Part shown: positions 51,565 through 62,369 of the stretch, one piece after another
Layout: every line of letters begins with the position of its first letter
Numbering within the stretch: position 1 is the stretch's first letter
NCBI GenBank assembly: GCA_022824265.1
Contig: JAJEAG010000042.1
Span: 1 to 64,000 of the forward strand
Source: Candidatus Poribacteria bacterium
Lineage (GTDB): Bacteria > Poribacteria > WGA-4E > WGA-3G
Direction of reading: 5' to 3'
Length of the DNA: 64,000 nt
The notes under the pieces: model-generated
The model's database searches: none
The model's input: the letters and a program-made list of their open reading frames with translations, nothing else
What the model was told of the DNA's origin: nothing
Program-made: the position numbers and the translations under genes

Positions 51565-54153
51565 CTATTTTCGTATTACCATTCGATTCGTTGCTGTCCA
51601 ATTCCCGGCAGTCATTGTATAGAAATAGACCCCGCTGGCAACATGTTCTCCGAACTCGTTTTTACCGTCCCAATATGCTGCATGTGTCCTGTCCTTATAG
51701 ACACCAGCGTTTTGATGTCCTAACTTTAGGGTGCGTACTAATTGTCCATCAGACGAATAGATATGGAACATAACGTCAGAGGGTTTTGCTAACTGGTAAG
51801 GTATCCATGTTTCAGGATTGAAAGGATTCGGATAGTTAGATAATAGCACAGTTTTTCTTGGCGTTAACTGAGTCAATATCTGTTCAAGTTTGGCAATACC
51901 CTTCTGATAAATAGGTGTCTTATTGTAAATTAGCCGCGCTTGGTCTAACCACGTTTGTACTTCAGCAGTGGTGAGTAATTCTATAGATCGCATATATTTT
52001 GATGGTGCAGCATTTCCATTTTCAAGAGCAGCAGCCACTAACAAAATATCTGCGATGTTGACAATACCGTCACTGTTTATATCAGCAGGGTTTTCATCTC
52101 CGATCTGCCCATATTGTGTAGCAACATGAATTAGATCTTGTATGTCTACTGTACCATCATGATTCACATCTTCAGCGAGTTGTGCTGGTTCCTCTGTGGT
52201 GTCTAAATATGGGGTGTAATCCCATAACATGACTGTTCCGTCCGAACTTGCACTGGCAAGTGTTTTACCATCCGGACTAAAGTCAATATTGTATGTGCCA
52301 GACGTATGTCCTATAAGGGTGGTTATTAATTCCCCCGAAGCAACATCCCAAATCTGTACGGTATTGTCATCCCAATAGTCTGCACCACTACTAACAAGTG
52401 TTCGACCATCAACACTGAAAAGGATTGAACTTACCCCATTAGTATATTCAGTATGTATGGTTCTCGGTTCCCCTGTTGCAATATCCCATAAAATAATAGT
52501 ATTATCCTCACTACTACTTGCTATGATGTTATCTCTTGGGTGAAATGCAACACTAAACACTTTCCCTGTATGTCCGGTGAAAGTTAATGTATTTAATTCA
52601 GTTGCAACATCCCACAAACGGACTGTATGGTCATTACTTGCACTTGCGAGGGTGCTACCATCATGATTTAGTGCGATAGAGTTGATACCTTCTGTATGTC
52701 CGATTAGAGCTGATTTTTGTGTTCTACCGCCATACCATATATGGATTGCCGTGGAATATCTATTTCCACTAAAAAGTAATTTCCCATCAGGACTAAAGGC
52801 AATGGATGCAGATCCCCAAGTAAGGCTTCCTCCACCTTGTCGTGGTGATCCGCCAAATTTTGAGAGAGTGACAATGTGTGTGGCACTTTCAACATCCCAT
52901 AAAAGGAGACGTGATACTTCCCAAGTAGCAAACGTGTTTCCATCTGGACTGAATGCAATATCATAATAAAATGACCAATGCCCTCCAAATATCATACGTT
53001 TGTATTCACCCGTGTTAGGATCCCAAAAATGAAATTTCTCCCTTGTAATAGTAGCAAGCATGTTACCGTCAGGTCTGAATGCCATTGCATATACTGATGT
53101 AGTATGTCCGGTAATAGATAGCATTCGTTCACCGCTTCCAATATCAAATAGATACAGTTCATCGCCTCCGCCACTTGCAAGGGTGTGCCCGTCCGGACTG
53201 AATGCAACAGAACTTATTCCTCCAAGATGTCCACCGAGTTCAACTTTGTGTGTCCCTGTGGCAACATCCCATAGATGTAATCCTTCGTATCCACCAGAAG
53301 CAATTGTGGTTCCATCCGGACTTATTGCCATAGATGTCATGGATGGTGTTCTAATTTCATATTTCCTTTGTCTGTTGTCAAGATTCCATACTTGTATGTC
53401 GTCGGATGTTCCACTTATGAGTGTATTCCCATCTGGACTGAACATGAGATAACGTATACCGCGGGCATACTCGGATAAAGTAGTTTTGTGCGTAGCATTA
53501 GCTACATCCCATAGTTGTAAGGTGTTATCCGAACTTTCACTGGCAAGTGTTGAACCATCAGGACTGAAGACGATTGTGCCTACCCAAGCTGTATGCCCTT
53601 TGAGAGTTGCTTTATGTTCTCCAGTTGTAAGATCCCAAAGATGAATATCTTCCTCACTTGTCCCAGCAAGCATCTGCATATCTGGACTGAAAGCGATACG
53701 GTAAATATCCTCTGTTTCACCATTCAGAGTTACTTTAACACTTTTATCAGTCAGGTCTCGCAATTGGACTATGTTGTTTTCGTCCGATGTAACATAAAGG
53801 CTTGTATCAGGACTTACTCCCAAAATGTTATTTGGAGTTTCTGCAATAAAGTCCAGTTCATCACCCGTGTATGCATCATATATCCAAATACCTATAGAAC
53901 TTTCAACTATGAATCGATTGCCATCTGGTGAGAAGGTTATATTATTTACACTACCTTTGCCAATACGTAGTTTTGCACCTTGCGGTAAATCCCATTGTGT
54001 CCAGTTTTGAGCAAAGACACTTGGTAGAAAGATAGCAGAAAACACCCAGAACGAGATTAATAACCTTTGTATGGAAAGGACAGAATGAAATTCTTGTGAT
54101 AAACAGTCTATCCAAGTTTTCTGTACTATTTTGTGGTTTTTCGCTGATCCCAT
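51565..54153 (-). CDS. Secreted WD40 protein with dockerin-like repeats and C-terminal sorting-type module
   Basis: 862 residues. The N-terminal hydrophobic stretch LLISFWVFSAIFLPSVFAQN is the signal peptide after an unusually long 30-residue polar leader; GGGAGG before the ATG supports this start, though a later one is possible. Mature start WDLPQGAKLRIGKGSVN, about 13 WD40 repeats, then dockerin-like DVNHDGTVDIQDLIHVATQY and DINSDGIVNIADILLVAAAL, a helical linker, and the C-terminal module with LLSNYPNPFNPETWIPYQL ending TNRMVIRK. Same architecture as its downstream neighbour, with which it forms an operon. Confidence 0.85.
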   Translation of the reverse strand: MGSAKNHKIVQKTWIDCLSQEFHSVLSIQRLLISFWVFSAIFLPSVFAQNWTQWDLPQGAKLRIGKGSVNNITFSPDGNRFIVESSIGIWIYDAYTGDELDFIAETPNNILGVSPDTSLYVTSDENNIVQLRDLTDKSVKVTLNGETEDIYRIAFSPDMQMLAGTSEEDIHLWDLTTGEHKATLKGHTAWVGTIVFSPDGSTLASESSDNTLQLWDVANATHKTTLSEYARGIRYLMFSPDGNTLISGTSDDIQVWNLDNRQRKYEIRTPSMTSMAISPDGTTIASGGYEGLHLWDVATGTHKVELGGHLGGISSVAFSPDGHTLASGGGDELYLFDIGSGERMLSITGHTTSVYAMAFRPDGNMLATITREKFHFWDPNTGEYKRMIFGGHWSFYYDIAFSPDGNTFATWEVSRLLLWDVESATHIVTLSKFGGSPRQGGGSLTWGSASIAFSPDGKLLFSGNRYSTAIHIWYGGRTQKSALIGHTEGINSIALNHDGSTLASASNDHTVRLWDVATELNTLTFTGHTGKVFSVAFHPRDNIIASSSEDNTIILWDIATGEPRTIHTEYTNGVSSILFSVDGRTLVSSGADYWDDNTVQIWDVASGELITTLIGHTSGTYNIDFSPDGKTLASASSDGTVMLWDYTPYLDTTEEPAQLAEDVNHDGTVDIQDLIHVATQYGQIGDENPADINSDGIVNIADILLVAAALENGNAAPSKYMRSIELLTTAEVQTWLDQARLIYNKTPIYQKGIAKLEQILTQLTPRKTVLLSNYPNPFNPETWIPYQLAKPSDVMFHIYSSDGQLVRTLKLGHQNAGVYKDRTHAAYWDGKNEFGEHVASGVYFYTMTAGNWTATNRMVIRK

Positions 54154-54605: not shown

Positions 54606-57494
54606 TTACTTCAAAATCAACATCTTGCGGGTGGCAGTAAAATCGCTTGCTGTCAACGTATAGAAATACACGCCGCTTGCGACAGGTTCGCCAGCATCGT
54701 TTTTACCATCCCAATATACTGCATTTGCGCGGTTGTGATATAAACCTGCAGGTTGATGTCCTAACACTATAGTCCTAATCAGTTGTCCATTTGTGGCATG
54801 GATACTAAGTGACACATCCGCTGCTTCTGACAACTGATAAGGTATCCATGTTTCAGGATTGAATGGATTCGGGTAGTTTGGTAAAAGAACTGTTTCTTGA
54901 GGGGTTAATGCTGCAAGAAGTTGCTGAAGAACAAATATACCACTTTGGAAAGTAGGATCTGTCAATGGTAATTGTTGTGCCTGATGCAACCACTGTTGTA
55001 CTTGTGCTCTTGTCAAGCCATGTTCTAAGTCGTGTGAGCTGATGATAGGCGCAGCACCAGAGGAACTTGCCATAGCCGCAGCAACTAAAGTGAGGTCTAC
55101 AATATCAACAACTTCATCCCCGTTGACATCTGCCAAATTATCCCCTTCTTCTCCGAAGTTAGATGCGACTAAGGTCAAATCTTGTATGTTGACGAAACCG
55201 TCTCCATTGATATCACCTTGTTGGAGTAAAGGTTTTGTAATCTGCGCTGCGGCAACACGTGCATAAGAAACTCTACCTAAATTGTCAGTCAATCGCACCT
55301 TAGAAACAGTTATGCTGGTATTCTTGAGGGAGACAACTTCGAAGGTAAGGTTAGCGAGTGTTCCGGCACCAAAATTTTGTCCTGAAAGAGATGTTGCTGC
55401 AACAGTAACAGTGTTATCTGTGGTAATGGGGTTCACAGAATATGCACCTGTCGGCAGGAAATCAGCATTAGAACTTCCAACATAACTGAGTGCAGATTCA
55501 TCATACCTAACGGTTGCCTGATAACCGAATACATTTCCCGCATCTTCAATATTAAGGGAGAATGTTAACTGCCCACCAATCGCAGGAGACTGTATTGAGG
55601 ATGGAGAAAGACTCACTGTAGCATACATTGTTGAAGGAGGTGTGAAGTTCCATATTAGCACAGTGCCATCAGAACTACTGCTTGCGATTTTGTCTCCATT
55701 TGGACTGAATGCAACATCCAAAACTCCGCTTTTATGTCCAGTAAATGTTTGTAGATGTTGACCGGATATAGTATCCCATACGCGAACAGTGCCATCATTA
55801 CTTCCGCTTGTAAGAATATCTCCATTGCTACTAAAAGCAACATCCCAGACATAATCCGTATGTCCTCTAAATATCTCAAGTTCAACACCGAAGACAATAT
55901 CCCATAAACGAACAGTGCCGTCATCACTTCCACTTGCAAGAACATTTCCATTTGGACTGAATGCAACGCTCCTTACAAAATCTTCATGCCCAAATAAGGT
56001 CTGTTTATGTTCACCTGTCCACACATCCCAAAGTCTAATTGTACCGTCAGCACTACCACTTGCAATTGTGTTACCATCAACACTGAAAGCAACACTCAGT
56101 ACTGAATTACTGTGTCCAGTGAATGTTTGTATGTGTCCTCCATAGATTGCATCCCATAATCGAATAGTTCCATCTTCACTACCACTTGCAATTGTGTTAC
56201 CATCTGGACTATATGCCACGCTCCAAACCCAATTCGTATGTCCTTCATAAGTTCGTTGGTGTTCACCTGTAGTACTGTCCCATAACCTGATGGTGCCATC
56301 GTCACTACCGCTTGCGATAGTACTACCGTCCGGACTGTATACTACACTCCAAACCCAGTCTGTATGTCCAATCAGCATTTGCTGATGTTGACCTGTTGCA
56401 GCATCCCACAGATTAATTGCATTGTCGGAACCACTGCTTGCAACGACACTACCATCATTACTAAACGTTACACCCAAAATGTAGTTGGTATATCCTGTAA
56501 GTGCCTGACGTTGTCCACCGAAAACAGCGTCCCACAAGCGGACAGTACCATCAATACTACCACTTGCAATTGTTCCGCCACTTGTGCTGAATGCAACGGT
56601 CAAAACAATATGTGTGTGTCCTGTAAGGACTTGCTGTGGTTGACCTGAGACAGCATCCCATAAGAGGACTGTTCCATCACCGCTGCTGCTTGCAATTGTA
56701 TTCCCATTTGGACTAAATGCGACATCGTACACTGGACCTTCATGTCCGATGAGGGTTTGTTTGATTATCCCAAACGCCGTATACCATAGACGAATAGTGC
56801 CATCACGACTTGCACTCGCAAGTGTTCCTTCAGTTGGACTGAATGCGATACCATAAACAGCATCTTCATGCCCAAATAGGATGTGTAATTGTTCACCTGT
56901 TTGAATATCCCATAGTTGGACAGATCCGTCCAAACTACCGCTTGCCAACATTGCACCTGTTGTGCTGAATGTAACGCTCGTTACGGTGTCAAAATGTCCG
57001 AGAAGTGTTTGCTGAGTTTCACCCGTTGAAGTGTCCCATAGTCGTATAGACCCATCAGCACTGCCACTTGCTATCATTTGTCCATCTGGGGAGAATGCAA
57101 CACTTTGAACTGAGTTCGTATGTCCCGATAGATTTCGTACCAGTTGACCTGTTGAAGTGTTCCAAAGTTGTATAGACCCATCAGCACTACCACCTGCTAT
57201 CATTTGTCCATCTGGGGAAATGGCAACACAATAGAAGGTTTGCGTATCTCCTGTTAGTAGGGCAGTTTCTGTATAGGTTTGCGTGTCATAGAGCCAAATT
57301 CCAATAGAACTGACTACTGCCAGATATGTTCCATCTGGTGAATACTGAAGTTCGCTTAACCTACCTTTACCAAGGCGCGCATTTGCGTTATCAGGCAAAC
57401 TAAATTGTGCGGAAGTTTGTGCAAAGGTGTTAGTTAGGTATAACGAGGAAGTAAAAAGTAGGGTGAAAAAAAATAAATATACTGTTTTCTTCAT
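54606..57494 (-). CDS. Secreted WD40 protein with cohesin-like and dockerin-like domains and sorting-type module
   Basis: 962 residues. Signal peptide ends TNTFAQT; FSLPDNANARLGKGRLSE follows, then 14 or so very regular WD40 repeats to about residue 615. Residues 625-750 resemble a cohesin fold (VSLSPSSIQSPAIGGQLTFS, FGYQATVRYDESALSYVGSS, GAGTLANLTFEVV). Residues 758-808 are two dockerin-like loops (DINGDGFVNIQDLTLVASNF, DVNGDEVVDIVDLTLVAAAM). A helical segment leads to the C-terminal module (about 869-962, RKMLILK at the end). Cohesin plus dockerin in one chain could allow head-to-tail assembly. Promoter at 57569-57597; AGGAG before the ATG. Confidence 0.85.
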   Translation of the reverse strand: MKKTVYLFFFTLLFTSSLYLTNTFAQTSAQFSLPDNANARLGKGRLSELQYSPDGTYLAVVSSIGIWLYDTQTYTETALLTGDTQTFYCVAISPDGQMIAGGSADGSIQLWNTSTGQLVRNLSGHTNSVQSVAFSPDGQMIASGSADGSIRLWDTSTGETQQTLLGHFDTVTSVTFSTTGAMLASGSLDGSVQLWDIQTGEQLHILFGHEDAVYGIAFSPTEGTLASASRDGTIRLWYTAFGIIKQTLIGHEGPVYDVAFSPNGNTIASSSGDGTVLLWDAVSGQPQQVLTGHTHIVLTVAFSTSGGTIASGSIDGTVRLWDAVFGGQRQALTGYTNYILGVTFSNDGSVVASSGSDNAINLWDAATGQHQQMLIGHTDWVWSVVYSPDGSTIASGSDDGTIRLWDSTTGEHQRTYEGHTNWVWSVAYSPDGNTIASGSEDGTIRLWDAIYGGHIQTFTGHSNSVLSVAFSVDGNTIASGSADGTIRLWDVWTGEHKQTLFGHEDFVRSVAFSPNGNVLASGSDDGTVRLWDIVFGVELEIFRGHTDYVWDVAFSSNGDILTSGSNDGTVRVWDTISGQHLQTFTGHKSGVLDVAFSPNGDKIASSSSDGTVLIWNFTPPSTMYATVSLSPSSIQSPAIGGQLTFSLNIEDAGNVFGYQATVRYDESALSYVGSSNADFLPTGAYSVNPITTDNTVTVAATSLSGQNFGAGTLANLTFEVVSLKNTSITVSKVRLTDNLGRVSYARVAAAQITKPLLQQGDINGDGFVNIQDLTLVASNFGEEGDNLADVNGDEVVDIVDLTLVAAAMASSSGAAPIISSHDLEHGLTRAQVQQWLHQAQQLPLTDPTFQSGIFVLQQLLAALTPQETVLLPNYPNPFNPETWIPYQLSEAADVSLSIHATNGQLIRTIVLGHQPAGLYHNRANAVYWDGKNDAGEPVASGVYFYTLTASDFTATRKMLILK

Positions 57495-57666: not shown

Positions 57667-60174
57667 CTAAGACCATACATATATTTCGTTATCGTCTGGG
57701 GAGTATCCGATGAATACTGCTAAAACTATTCTTGCACGTGTGCCTTGAACAGCAGGCACTTCGTGGATACAACGGGTGTTGAAAAAGTAGAGGTCTCCTT
57801 GTTCCAAATTGACTGTACAGTTCTCTATTCCATTCTCTAAAGCATACTTGTCAAACGTTTCTTCAGCAATATAAGGTTGAATGTCTTCCGACCAGAGACA
57901 CCGATGGAGTATGGCTTGTGTTCCTTTTCCATTTTCATCAGCATTTTGGAAGAGTAACACACCTGCAAATTGATGTTCAAAGCGGTATACTGCATAATCG
58001 GTACGTTTCTCACGGTATTTGACACTGTCAATATGTGGTTTATAACTATGTGTTTCGTAATGGACGCGAAATATTGCTGGACCATATAGTGCACTGTCAT
58101 CTTCACGAGCAATTTTTACCTCTTTTCCAGGTGATAATGCAGAAAGAGACTCATATATCAGGTCAACGGGATTATCAAATCCATCAAAAAGGAATCTAAA
58201 GAGGTTATGTGTTTCTTTCGCATGTGCCAAAAAACCAGTTTTATCACTACCTCGATTGCCTAAACTTGTTCCGATATCAATACGTGTCCGTTTGTCAGCA
58301 GAGTTAATGTCTGTTTCATCACGCATCAATCCCATATTTGTAAACCGATTGATAAGACCTTGACACTGTTCAGGAGAATATGCATTGCGTAGAATGATGG
58401 CAGGTATTTCTGCTTGTGAAAGGGAGTATATCGGGTTACTGTAGGCTTCATAAATCGTCTTTAGGTCAGGTTCAGCAGGAAGCCAACTGGATCGATGTTT
58501 CATAGTGGTCTCCAAATGTTGTGGGGAATCAGGAGTATACATGAACTGTCGTTCTGCTAATACTTGAGAAGGACGTTTTTGTAGAACTGGAATGACATAA
58601 CTCCGAATCGTTAGGTCATCATAAATGTCTGTTTCAACTAATGGATTCGAATTTTCGCGGTGGTCAAACACAACATAGTATCCTTCAGTAGTCCTTTCCG
58701 ACTTTAGGTATTCAGCAAGTTGCTGCTTTCCCGCTTGATACCGACGTTCACTTCGCCATATCTTCGTTTCAATTATATATTGCGTTCCATTATGTGAAAT
58801 GATGATGTCTGCTCTACCTCTTCCAGTTTGAACTTCTAAACGTATTGATGCTCCTATAGTTTGTACAAACTGATCTAAGTATGCTGATAAGAGATATTGT
58901 CCGATGAATTCTTGTGGTGTGTCTGGTACTTGAAGGATTCTATATCCTACCCTCGCAATAAAATTCTTGAAATTGTCTATCAAAGCGTGCATCTGTATTG
59001 TGCCTGTAGGTGTAATATATCCAGAAAAATTAATTGGACCGTCATCTGAAAAGTATTCGTCTTCAAGACCATTACCGGGAGGTTGAAACGCTTGGATAAT
59101 ACAATGCATATAAATCGGATTTAATATTTTACACAGACCGTCTTTACCTTTTGTTATGACTCCGTACGTTACCAGTTCACTAATGCTCTCGTTACGGAGG
59201 TTAAAACGTTTGCCTTCCTCTGTAAATGCGATTTGCATAAGAAGCGAAGCGTATTTGTGATCCCTACGGATATTTGTGATTAAATGATCAATGTTTGTGT
59301 TCCGCTCCTCAAGGAGACATGCATGTGCTTGTAAAAAGTGTGAAATATCAATGGTTTCGTTTTTTGGGATATTGAGTTCGTCTGTTAGAATTTGGGCAAT
59401 TCTATTAACGAGGAAAGGTTGTCCAGCAGTCTGCAGATGAAGTATCTCAAGGACTTCTGGAGAAGTATGTTGTCCGACTTCGTCCGTGTACTGCTGGAAT
59501 AATTCATGAATCTGCTGTAACGTGAAGTTTGGGAGTGTAAACTCATCTTGTATGTTAAATGGAGAAATTGAACGGTCGTAGTTTAGTTGTGTGATGCTTT
59601 TAACACCAACTATGCTGACGCTATACGGGGATCGGACATGGCTATCGGTAAGATATATTCTACGGAGTGTATGCAGAAAATCGCTCACGACGGTTTGTGG
59701 AATTCCATCAAACTCGTCAATGTTTAGAACAATACGTGGAACTTCAGATGGGTCATTCTCATGAATTAGCAAACTTGGTAATTGCCTGAAAAAACTCCTA
59801 AGTGCAACATGATCAGTAATTTCAGTGTTGTCTAAGAATTCTATAAGTTCTTGTGTTAGTACAAGGTTTCTTTTCTCACAGACCTTTTCTATTTCTTCAC
59901 AGATATCATCAAAGATGTCTCTGTAAAAGGCATCCGATGTGCGATTTTTATACATCTCAAAATTGAGCTGAATTGGAAAAAAGTTGTTGTCTTCTTCTAC
60001 GAGTATTTTGAGAGCATCTTTGAAGAATGTGGTTTTTCCTGTTTGTCGTGGAGCAAAAAGTACGATGTATCGTCCTTGTTTTACGCGGTTTATGTAATCG
60101 GCAATTTCTTCCCTACGCGTGACGACATAATGGTCTCTGATATTAACTGGTCCGTATGTGCCAAATATTCTCAT
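57667..60174 (-). CDS. Fusion protein: AAA-type ATPase + PD-(D/E)XK nuclease-like domain + 2OG-Fe(II) oxygenase
   Basis: 835 residues with three parts. Residues 1-370: P-loop ATPase with Walker A APRQTGKT (41-48) and Walker B IVLNIDEFDG (148-157), like the AAA-like ATPases often seen beside nuclease domains. Residues 390-530: PD-(D/E)XK-type core with D456 and E469-T-K471 (RGRADIIIS, YIIETKIW). Residues 590-835: 2-oxoglutarate/iron oxygenase with H714-I-D716 (YKPHIDSV), H804 (RCIHEVP) and R813 or R815. An internal ATG (M558, at 58503) has GGAG 6 bases before it, so the oxygenase may also be made alone. Function unknown; a phage-defence or DNA/protein-modifying role is speculation. Confidence 0.8.
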   Translation of the reverse strand: MRIFGTYGPVNIRDHYVVTRREEIADYINRVKQGRYIVLFAPRQTGKTTFFKDALKILVEEDNNFFPIQLNFEMYKNRTSDAFYRDIFDDICEEIEKVCEKRNLVLTQELIEFLDNTEITDHVALRSFFRQLPSLLIHENDPSEVPRIVLNIDEFDGIPQTVVSDFLHTLRRIYLTDSHVRSPYSVSIVGVKSITQLNYDRSISPFNIQDEFTLPNFTLQQIHELFQQYTDEVGQHTSPEVLEILHLQTAGQPFLVNRIAQILTDELNIPKNETIDISHFLQAHACLLEERNTNIDHLITNIRRDHKYASLLMQIAFTEEGKRFNLRNESISELVTYGVITKGKDGLCKILNPIYMHCIIQAFQPPGNGLEDEYFSDDGPINFSGYITPTGTIQMHALIDNFKNFIARVGYRILQVPDTPQEFIGQYLLSAYLDQFVQTIGASIRLEVQTGRGRADIIISHNGTQYIIETKIWRSERRYQAGKQQLAEYLKSERTTEGYYVVFDHRENSNPLVETDIYDDLTIRSYVIPVLQKRPSQVLAERQFMYTPDSPQHLETTMKHRSSWLPAEPDLKTIYEAYSNPIYSLSQAEIPAIILRNAYSPEQCQGLINRFTNMGLMRDETDINSADKRTRIDIGTSLGNRGSDKTGFLAHAKETHNLFRFLFDGFDNPVDLIYESLSALSPGKEVKIAREDDSALYGPAIFRVHYETHSYKPHIDSVKYREKRTDYAVYRFEHQFAGVLLFQNADENGKGTQAILHRCLWSEDIQPYIAEETFDKYALENGIENCTVNLEQGDLYFFNTRCIHEVPAVQGTRARIVLAVFIGYSPDDNEIYVWS

Positions 60175-60196: not shown

Positions 60197-61021
60197 TTAG
60201 AATTTCGGATTGAACAGATAATCATCCAACTTCTCTTGGACAAATTCAGCATTATGGTCAAGTTCGCTGTTTTCAAAAGCAGCTTCACAACCTGTTTGGT
60301 ATTTCAAACGTCTTCCTGAACGGAGCCAACGTATGCGGTGAATCATTGCTATCATGTGTCGTGGTTCGTCAGACTGGTTTGGGACTCCACGGTGCCAAAG
60401 TCGCATGTCTCGAATTAAGGCACTGCCTTTCTTGGCATTGCCTCGGATCGGTGGAGCGATTTCACGACGTTCTGCTTCATGTTCATCATCAATGTGTCGT
60501 CCACTGACATCCAGATGTGATCCAGGCCACAGTTCTACACTACCGTTTTCCTCAAGTGTATCTTGAGGAGAGATATTGACAACTACTTCAGATGCGGGGT
60601 GTGCCACTTCCTGATTCAGCCACAGATGATCACCGTCTCTATGGAGCGGTTGTGTGCCACTACCCGGACAGTTCGTGTTGCCGTTGTAAAAATTATTATA
60701 GACTCCCTCTCCAAGCAGAGCCTTCGTTACCTGCACAATGAAAGGATTTGCAACTATGTCCTTGAAGATATAAGGTGCAAATGGAGGCGGTCCCTGCTGA
60801 AGATGTCCTTTGAGCATTCCCGCCCCACCCCAACGTTCGGCTTTAATCAACTTTCGTGAATCGTCATCCATACGTTCTCGCAATATATCCAAATGATCAT
60901 GGCTGATGATGTTCTCTAAAACAACATATCCATCAACGCGTATTGCTTCAACTGCTTGATTCACATGTTTATCTGATAGTTTACCTGAGGATAATTCTTT
61001 AGGTCTTACTGTTATTTCCAC
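60197..61021 (-). CDS. Phytanoyl-CoA dioxygenase (PhyH) family protein
   Basis: A 274-residue non-heme iron 2-oxoglutarate-dependent oxygenase. Iron ligands are visible as H127-R-D129 (QPLHRDGDHLWLN) and H210 (RLWHRGVPNQS); R221 (EPRHM) should bind 2-oxoglutarate. Substrate unknown; the family hydroxylates lipids and diverse small molecules and is expanded in Poribacteria. The start is GTG at 61021 with AAGGA 8 bases before it. It overlaps the aspartokinase gene by 23 bases and ends 22 bases before the fusion gene's start, so three genes form one transcript. Confidence 0.88.
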   Translation of the reverse strand: MEITVRPKELSSGKLSDKHVNQAVEAIRVDGYVVLENIISHDHLDILRERMDDDSRKLIKAERWGGAGMLKGHLQQGPPPFAPYIFKDIVANPFIVQVTKALLGEGVYNNFYNGNTNCPGSGTQPLHRDGDHLWLNQEVAHPASEVVVNISPQDTLEENGSVELWPGSHLDVSGRHIDDEHEAERREIAPPIRGNAKKGSALIRDMRLWHRGVPNQSDEPRHMIAMIHRIRWLRSGRRLKYQTGCEAAFENSELDHNAEFVQEKLDDYLFNPKF

Positions 61022-62369
61022 TGAAAAATTCCTTATAGAGTGCTTGAACTGCAGTATCCATATCTGTTGACTTCACACCGAACATCATGCTAACCTCATT
61101 TGAACCTTGGTTAATAATCTCTATATTCACATCAGAATTTGCCAACGCGCTTGTTGCTCGTGCTGCGACGCCAACGGTGTGCTGCATACCTTCACCTACA
61201 ACCATAATGAGAGATAACTCACGTTCAACAGATACATCTTCTGGGGCAAGTGTTTGTCGAATCTTTTCAACAACTCTTTTCTCTTTATCTGCAGGTAAGT
61301 TTTCTTCTCGGAGGATGACAGACATATTGTCTATACCTGATGGGACATGTTCGAAAGAGATATTTTCACCTTCCAATATCTGCAATAGTCGTCTACCAAA
61401 ACCGATCTGTCGGTTCATGAGATATTTGCTGAGATAAACACAACAGACATTGCTCATGGCTGCGATGCCGACTACTGGGGTTTCCCTTGAGTTGCAGTGA
61501 GGGACAATCAATGTTCCAGCAGCTTTGGGATTATTAGTATTTTTTATATGCACAGGTACCATTGCGCGATACACAGGTTCAAGAGCTTCATCGTGAAATA
61601 CTGAGAAACCAGCATAAGAGAGTTCGCGCATCTCACGGTAGGTTAGTTCTGAAATCGGCGCGGGATCCGATACAATAGATGGATTTGCTGCGAACACAGA
61701 GTCAACATCAGTGAAGTTCTCATACACTTCTGCTCTAACAGCACCCGCAAGAATCGCACCGGTAATGTCGGAACCACCACGCGAAAATGTTACAACGTGA
61801 CCATCCTTTGAATAACCAAAAAAACCTGGAAAAATCGTAATTCCTTGACGTTCCCTAAGATGACGTAAGCGGTTGTACGCTTCAGGAAGAACTTGTGCGT
61901 TTCCCGGTTCATCAGAAAGGAGTAATCCAGCGTCCTTTGGGTTGACATAGTGTGCCTCTACACCGCGTCCCTGCAACACCTGTGCAATTAAACGGGCACA
62001 ATTGTCTTCGCCACCTGCTTTCATTGTGTCCATATAGAGATCAGCATCATCTATGCTGTTTTCAAGACGTTCTGTGAGATCAAGGGCAATAGGTTCAATG
62101 ACCTCGACGGGTAACTCCAATTCAGTAGCGATATTTCGATAACGTTCAATAGCTTCTGCACACTCAGATGCCCCAATTTTTCCCATCAACCGTTCGGATG
62201 CAGCTGCTATGAGTAGATCGGTTACTTTGATGTCTTGGCTGTGACGTTTACCGGGTGCTGATACTACGATTATACGCCGTGACGGATCAGCGGTGATGAT
62301 GTCGCACACTTGGCGAACTTGATCTCCTGTCGCAAGGGAACTCCCACCAAATTTAGATACTTTTAACAA
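60999..62369 (-). CDS. lysC: Aspartokinase
   Basis: A 456-residue kinase for the first step of the Lys/Thr/Met pathway. The N-terminal kinase domain has KVSKFGGSSLATGDQV and FSRGGSDITGAILAG; the C-terminal half has two ACT domains (for example ISFEHVPSGIDNMSVIL and VGVAARATSALANSDVNIEI), the usual place of feedback control by lysine or threonine. The start is TTG at 62369: GGAGG lies 7 bases upstream and no in-frame ATG is nearby. Works with thrC at 27.4 kb. Its association with two oxygenase genes downstream has no obvious reason. Confidence 0.93.
   Translation of the reverse strand: MLKVSKFGGSSLATGDQVRQVCDIITADPSRRIIVVSAPGKRHSQDIKVTDLLIAAASERLMGKIGASECAEAIERYRNIATELELPVEVIEPIALDLTERLENSIDDADLYMDTMKAGGEDNCARLIAQVLQGRGVEAHYVNPKDAGLLLSDEPGNAQVLPEAYNRLRHLRERQGITIFPGFFGYSKDGHVVTFSRGGSDITGAILAGAVRAEVYENFTDVDSVFAANPSIVSDPAPISELTYREMRELSYAGFSVFHDEALEPVYRAMVPVHIKNTNNPKAAGTLIVPHCNSRETPVVGIAAMSNVCCVYLSKYLMNRQIGFGRRLLQILEGENISFEHVPSGIDNMSVILREENLPADKEKRVVEKIRQTLAPEDVSVERELSLIMVVGEGMQHTVGVAARATSALANSDVNIEIINQGSNEVSMMFGVKSTDMDTAVQALYKEFFSGNNSKT

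Follow-up and report, generated by a model that had tools for sequence, protein, structure and literature searches.

Does a chain that joins an ATPase, a nuclease and an oxygenase in one reading frame represent an enzyme built for a joint function, or two genes whose products happen to be connected? The question arises from a single frame of 835 codons (AAA+ ATPase of the AAA_35 type, PD-(D/E)XK nuclease and WelO5-family 2OG oxygenase) in a Candidatus Poribacteria genome. The window (the whole 64-kb stretch of DNA analysed) comes from contig 56 of a 4.45-Mb draft genome (G000), and all relatives compared are Candidatus Poribacteria. We favor, at a probability of about 0.72, a stop-loss fusion in which the two halves work independently and a free oxygenase is made as a second product from an internal start.

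Domains of the fused reading frame

A first-pass annotation of this DNA had proposed three possibly active domains in one chain, and the catalytic residues that it named are conserved almost throughout 91 copies of the ATPase-nuclease and 64 oxygenases. Coordinates are given in Table 1.

Table 1. Positions in the window of the fused reading frame, its parts and its operon neighbors.
Feature	Positions	Strand	Basis
Fused ORF, 835 aa	57667..60174	minus	Same 2505-nt frame without indels in five other species
AAA+ ATPase domain AAA_35, residues 16-343	59146..60129	minus	Pfam, conservation, AlphaFold model
Walker A APRQTGKT, residues 41-48; Walker B D153-E154	within 59146..60129	minus	
PD-(D/E)XK nuclease core (predicted), residues 421-529; D456, E469, K471	58588..58914	minus	Model topology, conservation, sub-threshold PDDEXK_9
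Codon 546 TAT (Tyr), at TAA stop site of unfused copies	58537..58539	minus	TAT in six fused copies
Linker, 12 codons, former intergenic/leader DNA	58504..58539	minus	12 codons in all six, stop-free, fast-changing
GGAG, putative internal ribosome-binding site	58510..58513	minus	Kept in 6/6 fused copies and in G002, 6-nt spacing
WelO5-family 2OG-Fe(II) oxygenase, 278 aa from internal ATG	57670..58503	minus	Pfam; separate single gene in most relatives
PhyH gene, same operon	60197..61021	minus	Pfam; synteny in relatives
Aspartate kinase gene, first of conserved trio	60999..62369	minus	Only copy in genome

The N-terminal domain belongs to AAA_35 (PF14516; 58.1 bits against a cut-off of 27). Its Walker A motif departs from strict GxxxxGK[ST] because residue 41 is Ala. 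The Walker A lysine and the Walker B DEF are invariant in 91/91 copies. For the nuclease, PDDEXK_9 (PF08011) matches residues 443-494 at 21.4 bits, which is under its cut-off of 25.5. An AlphaFold model of residues 1-545, built from a 48-row alignment (pLDDT 75.7), contains the AAA+ part, a winged-helix-like part (approximately residues 293-362) and a PD-(D/E)XK core made up of a helix (421-440), three strands (443-449, 454-461 and 464-472) and a further helix (476-492). The second core strand carries D456 and the third E469-x-K471; D456 and E469 are each retained in 90 of the 91 copies, and K471 in all. Model and conservation agree with the alpha-beta-beta-beta-alpha-beta core and D...ExK signature of the superfamily, and we class this half as a predicted PD-(D/E)XK nuclease. 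Foldseek returned Cdc6/Orc1 as the best match to the model (E 5e-7), but at a TM of only 0.2-0.3; further matches, to RuvB and clamp loaders (also TM 0.2-0.3), are useful only for the AAA+ call. As modeled, the protein resembles Orc/Cdc6-type AAA+ proteins with a nuclease tail. Searching the sequences of solved structures with the ATPase-nuclease profile yielded no convincing match.

Residues 576-835 are a member of the WelO5 family (PF22814; 85.3 bits against a cut-off of 27, profile positions 10-277 of 277). H714 and D716 occur in all 64 oxygenases and H804 in 63. Fe/2OG halogenases carry Ala or Gly at the Asp/Glu iron-ligand site, and hydroxylases keep the carboxylate. We rejected a halogenase identity, as D716, which occupies the position of WelO5 G166, is present in 64/64 sequences. 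Since this Asp ligand is absent from WelO5-type halogenases, the enzyme is expected to hydroxylate a small molecule. The location behind the sole aspartate kinase hints at the aspartate pathway, which is a guess. Neighbors of outgroup oxygenases vary by lineage (Gfo/Idh, sugar-isomerase-like, methyltransferase and enolase family) and provide no substrate clue. A model of the oxygenase alone, from 10 close sequences, was unusable (pLDDT 35). The oxygenase part is single-copy in G000, and we found no match to it in plasmid records. In one relative (G066), a further gene of the WelO5 family lies about 2.8 kb upstream of that genome's oxygenase ortholog (L155:747-1676, minus), and family f4 holds several WelO5-family paralogs.

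Both parts were also found as free genes, as the first reading had suggested looking for. The G000 genome encodes eight further matches to the ATPase-nuclease part (56-62% identity; at least nine copies altogether), and every genome of family f1 has from 3 to at least 10. About 79 copies outside the operon slot described below finish near residue 530-551 with the motif SYVIPVxQxxPS, and none of these, in G000 or on the contigs of relatives, is fused to another domain. Other copies also occupy conserved slots. No match was found in phage records, and PADLOC defence models gave weak partial matches only (best E 3e-4), so that assignment to an anti-phage system is not made. In two pairs of copies (L044/L046 and L047/L048), a block approximately 200-500 nt from the start has 46-78% identity inside genes that are 80-97% identical; this looks like a segment swapped by recombination among paralogs. 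The ATPase-nuclease constitutes a large unstudied family in sponge symbionts.

The operon slot and the origin of the fusion

The usual gene order in family f1 is aspartate kinase-PhyH-oxygenase. The PhyH gene, correctly noted earlier as adjoining the fused ORF, ends 22 nt upstream of it. This neighbor is unremarkable by itself because the genome has 114 PhyH (PF05721) matches, which amounts to a very large expansion of oxygenases; what is conserved is the order of the trio. Downstream of the fused gene are two adjacent large WD40-repeat proteins (51565-54153 and 54606-57494, minus); they show a dockerin-like stretch and, at the C-terminus, the sorting-like motif NYPNPFNPET. Rfam identified no RNA in the 64-kb window.

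We searched 85 genomes of the phylum, and counted slot occupancy over the 57 family-f1 genomes that bear the oxygenase. The oxygenase was found in 70 of the 85, and is fused to the ATPase-nuclease in 6 only. Twelve genomes carry an ATPase-nuclease with PhyH on one side and the oxygenase on the other. Six of them, all of genus g2 (G025, G026, G035, G043, G045, G057), keep the genes separate, with a GGAGG dedicated to the oxygenase; in the other six, of genus g1, the genus of the window (G000, G005, G009, G010, G011, G016), they are fused. Eight genomes that lack the gene in this slot retain pieces of it: the 5' end in G006, G013, G015, G044 and G048, the 3' end in G029 and G041, and a linker of the fused type in G002. 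In the other f1 genomes the slot is cleanly empty, the neighborhood is rearranged or there is no oxygenase match (G004, G058). From these deletion scars it follows that the ATPase-nuclease was once commoner in the slot and has been lost repeatedly. In G015 (L150), seven codons of the deleted gene now begin the oxygenase frame and supply its start codon, and PhyH is also gone.

The g2 slot copies are approximately 90-96% identical between species, compared with mostly 75-90% for flanking genes, and their dS is 0.10-0.32 versus 0.35-1.7 for the adjoining oxygenases. This pattern, an ATPase-nuclease far closer between species than its flanks, is that of the g2 loci L047, L048, L049, L050, L123 and L127. 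These values indicate recent exchange of the gene between g2 species at one chromosomal site, for which homologous recombination through the flanks suffices.

Most separate slot copies finish TTC TCT TAA TAG (Phe, Ser, stop). At this site the fused copy of G005 reads TTT TCT TAT ACA, and TAT is found in 6/6 fused copies. Thus, relatives do carry a stop between residues 540 and 560, at codon 546, which the first-pass annotation had named as part of what would refute its reading; its interpretation as a sign of sequencing error fails, as six independent assemblies are open here. G043 has taken a first step alone (TAA to CAA), with readthrough caught by the second stop TAG, and G045 terminates a few codons before the usual stop. 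In the nuclease tree all 12 slot copies group together (SH-aLRT 98), with the fused six (99) and the separate six (100) as subclades. G005 belongs to the fused group in this tree, and its position is not resolved in the oxygenase tree; this placement may call for recombination or extra losses.

The same fusion, in the same frame, occurs in five other g1 species. It had been described as possibly a fresh fusion of two genes. Fusion is right, but it is old, given synonymous divergence of up to 1.3-2 among the fused copies of six species. The view that no named family has this domain order is incomplete: the three-part chain is restricted to this g1 clade among the 85 genomes, and the ATPase-nuclease half is a widespread architecture. 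Literature searches found no paper on the ATPase-nuclease-oxygenase architecture in Poribacteria.

We propose that an AAA_35-PD-(D/E)XK gene of the multi-copy family came to sit in the operon, behind the PhyH gene and ahead of the oxygenase gene. In the ancestor of part of g1 the stop would then have been lost (TAA to TAT), extending the frame via a 12-codon leader into the oxygenase. The direction of this change assumes that the separate state, which is that of all other family copies, is ancestral. In the 835-aa chain the halves would retain their old activities: the one would bind and cut DNA at the expense of ATP, and the other would hydroxylate a small molecule. A separate 278-aa protein would still start from the GGAG and ATG that belonged to the oxygenase gene and are now intragenic. 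The donor family, the slot, the stop loss and the shared descent can be read directly from the sequences.

The internal start and competing explanations

The first-pass annotation had also called an internal start with GGAG at 58503, and this is probably real. The ATG is codon 558 (58501-58503), with a 6-nt spacer after GGAG. GGAG-N6-ATG is retained in all six fused copies despite fast change in the linker (GAG makes up 22% of Glu codons), and in G002 as the seventh. The latter genome lacks the ATPase-nuclease, and the "internal" ATG is where its oxygenase frame now starts. In the oxygenase tree G002 is nested in the fused clade (support of 100/99 for its grouping with G000, G009 and G011), and it keeps the linker with one extra nucleotide (0/2000 shuffles match as well). 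This reversion to a free oxygenase is the best evidence for a working internal start. Two products, of 835 and 278 aa, are probably made.

Among fused copies, omega is approximately 0.08-0.17 in the ATPase-nuclease half and 0.03-0.11 in the oxygenase half (pairwise Nei-Gojobori, with dS near-saturated in some pairs). These values indicate purifying selection on both halves; like the kept start signal and the one reversion, this is read from sequence. We infer production of both proteins, their enzymatic activities and the absence of a joint function.

An alternative that we consider rather unlikely is a translational accident, in which stop loss was tolerated since the slot ATPase-nuclease can be dispensed with, the long chain makes no difference and only the oxygenase made from the internal start is of use. 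Repeated deletion of the gene, with scars left, is in keeping with this, and so is a simulation of neutral linkers, 5-23% of which stayed stop-free. The open linker therefore argues only weakly for selection on the long chain. What speaks against an accident is the purifying selection on the ATPase-nuclease half in fused copies, with its catalytic residues intact.

Less probable is a purposeful three-domain enzyme, in which nucleic acid or a partner is modified by the oxygenase and sensed or cut by the ATPase-nuclease, so that the fusion itself is the functional unit. It could explain a frame that is open and indel-free in six species when the non-coding linker of G002 has gained one base. However, the oxygenase is free in 51/57 family genomes and the ATPase-nuclease at every other locus, the WelO5 family acts on small molecules, the linker changes fast, and G002 lost the ATPase-nuclease yet retained the oxygenase.

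Two readings treat the ATPase-nuclease as mobile. It is quite improbable that the gene is a slot-specific, horizontally exchanged Poribacteria element whose fusion to a host gene resists loss; a fusion with a retained internal start could do so because a deletion must spare the downstream enzyme. We give still less credence to a selfish or homing-like nuclease gene that repeatedly re-enters the same slot. The low dS of g2 slot copies and the patchy presence would fit, but ordinary homologous exchange through the flanks accounts for the former, scars point to frequent loss, and other family copies are in conserved slots. Finally, although unfused relatives carry a stop at the junction, the chance that an error joined two genes is negligible, since the same 2505-nt frame is free of stops and indels in six separate assemblies (including G010, where it sits in a single-contig chromosome), which argues against sequencing or assembly error and against chance.

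On the favored reading, this is no new kind of system but a natural stop-loss fusion that can be dated well, in a single genus of sponge-associated Poribacteria. Its record is unusually complete: the unfused stop, six fused species, a kept start and one return to the free enzyme. It suggests that "new" multidomain architectures can arise without joint function, a caution for guessing function from domains.

Comparison with known systems

The closest parallel to the ATPase-nuclease is with DUF1703 proteins, which combine AAA-ATPase_like (PF09820) and PDDEXK_9 (PF08011) and are present as 25 paralogs in Cardinium cCpun (PMC6387759). Shared features are the N-terminal ATPase and C-terminal PD-(D/E)XK nuclease, the many divergent paralogs per genome, and recombination among paralogs. 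Unlike those proteins, the ATPase of the window is AAA_35 (PF14516), and the Poribacteria copies are slot-bound, with one clade joined to an oxygenase. Membership is not claimed because PF09820 has no match at E<=1 in the window ORF and PDDEXK_9 is below cut-off.

Proteins recorded as "AAA-like domain" or "AAA family ATPase" with AAA_35 align over residues 1-538 at 25-29% identity, and this full-length architecture occurs in cyanobacterial, Bacteroidetes, Marinitoga and actinomycete records. These AAA_35 records of cyanobacteria and others have no oxygenase match, unlike the fused ORF.

WelO5 is a carrier-protein-independent halogenase. The oxygenase of the window shares with it a full-length family match and a conserved C-terminus ending in VWS/YWS, but differs in having Asp716 where WelO5 has Gly166, which gives it a hydroxylase-type iron site.
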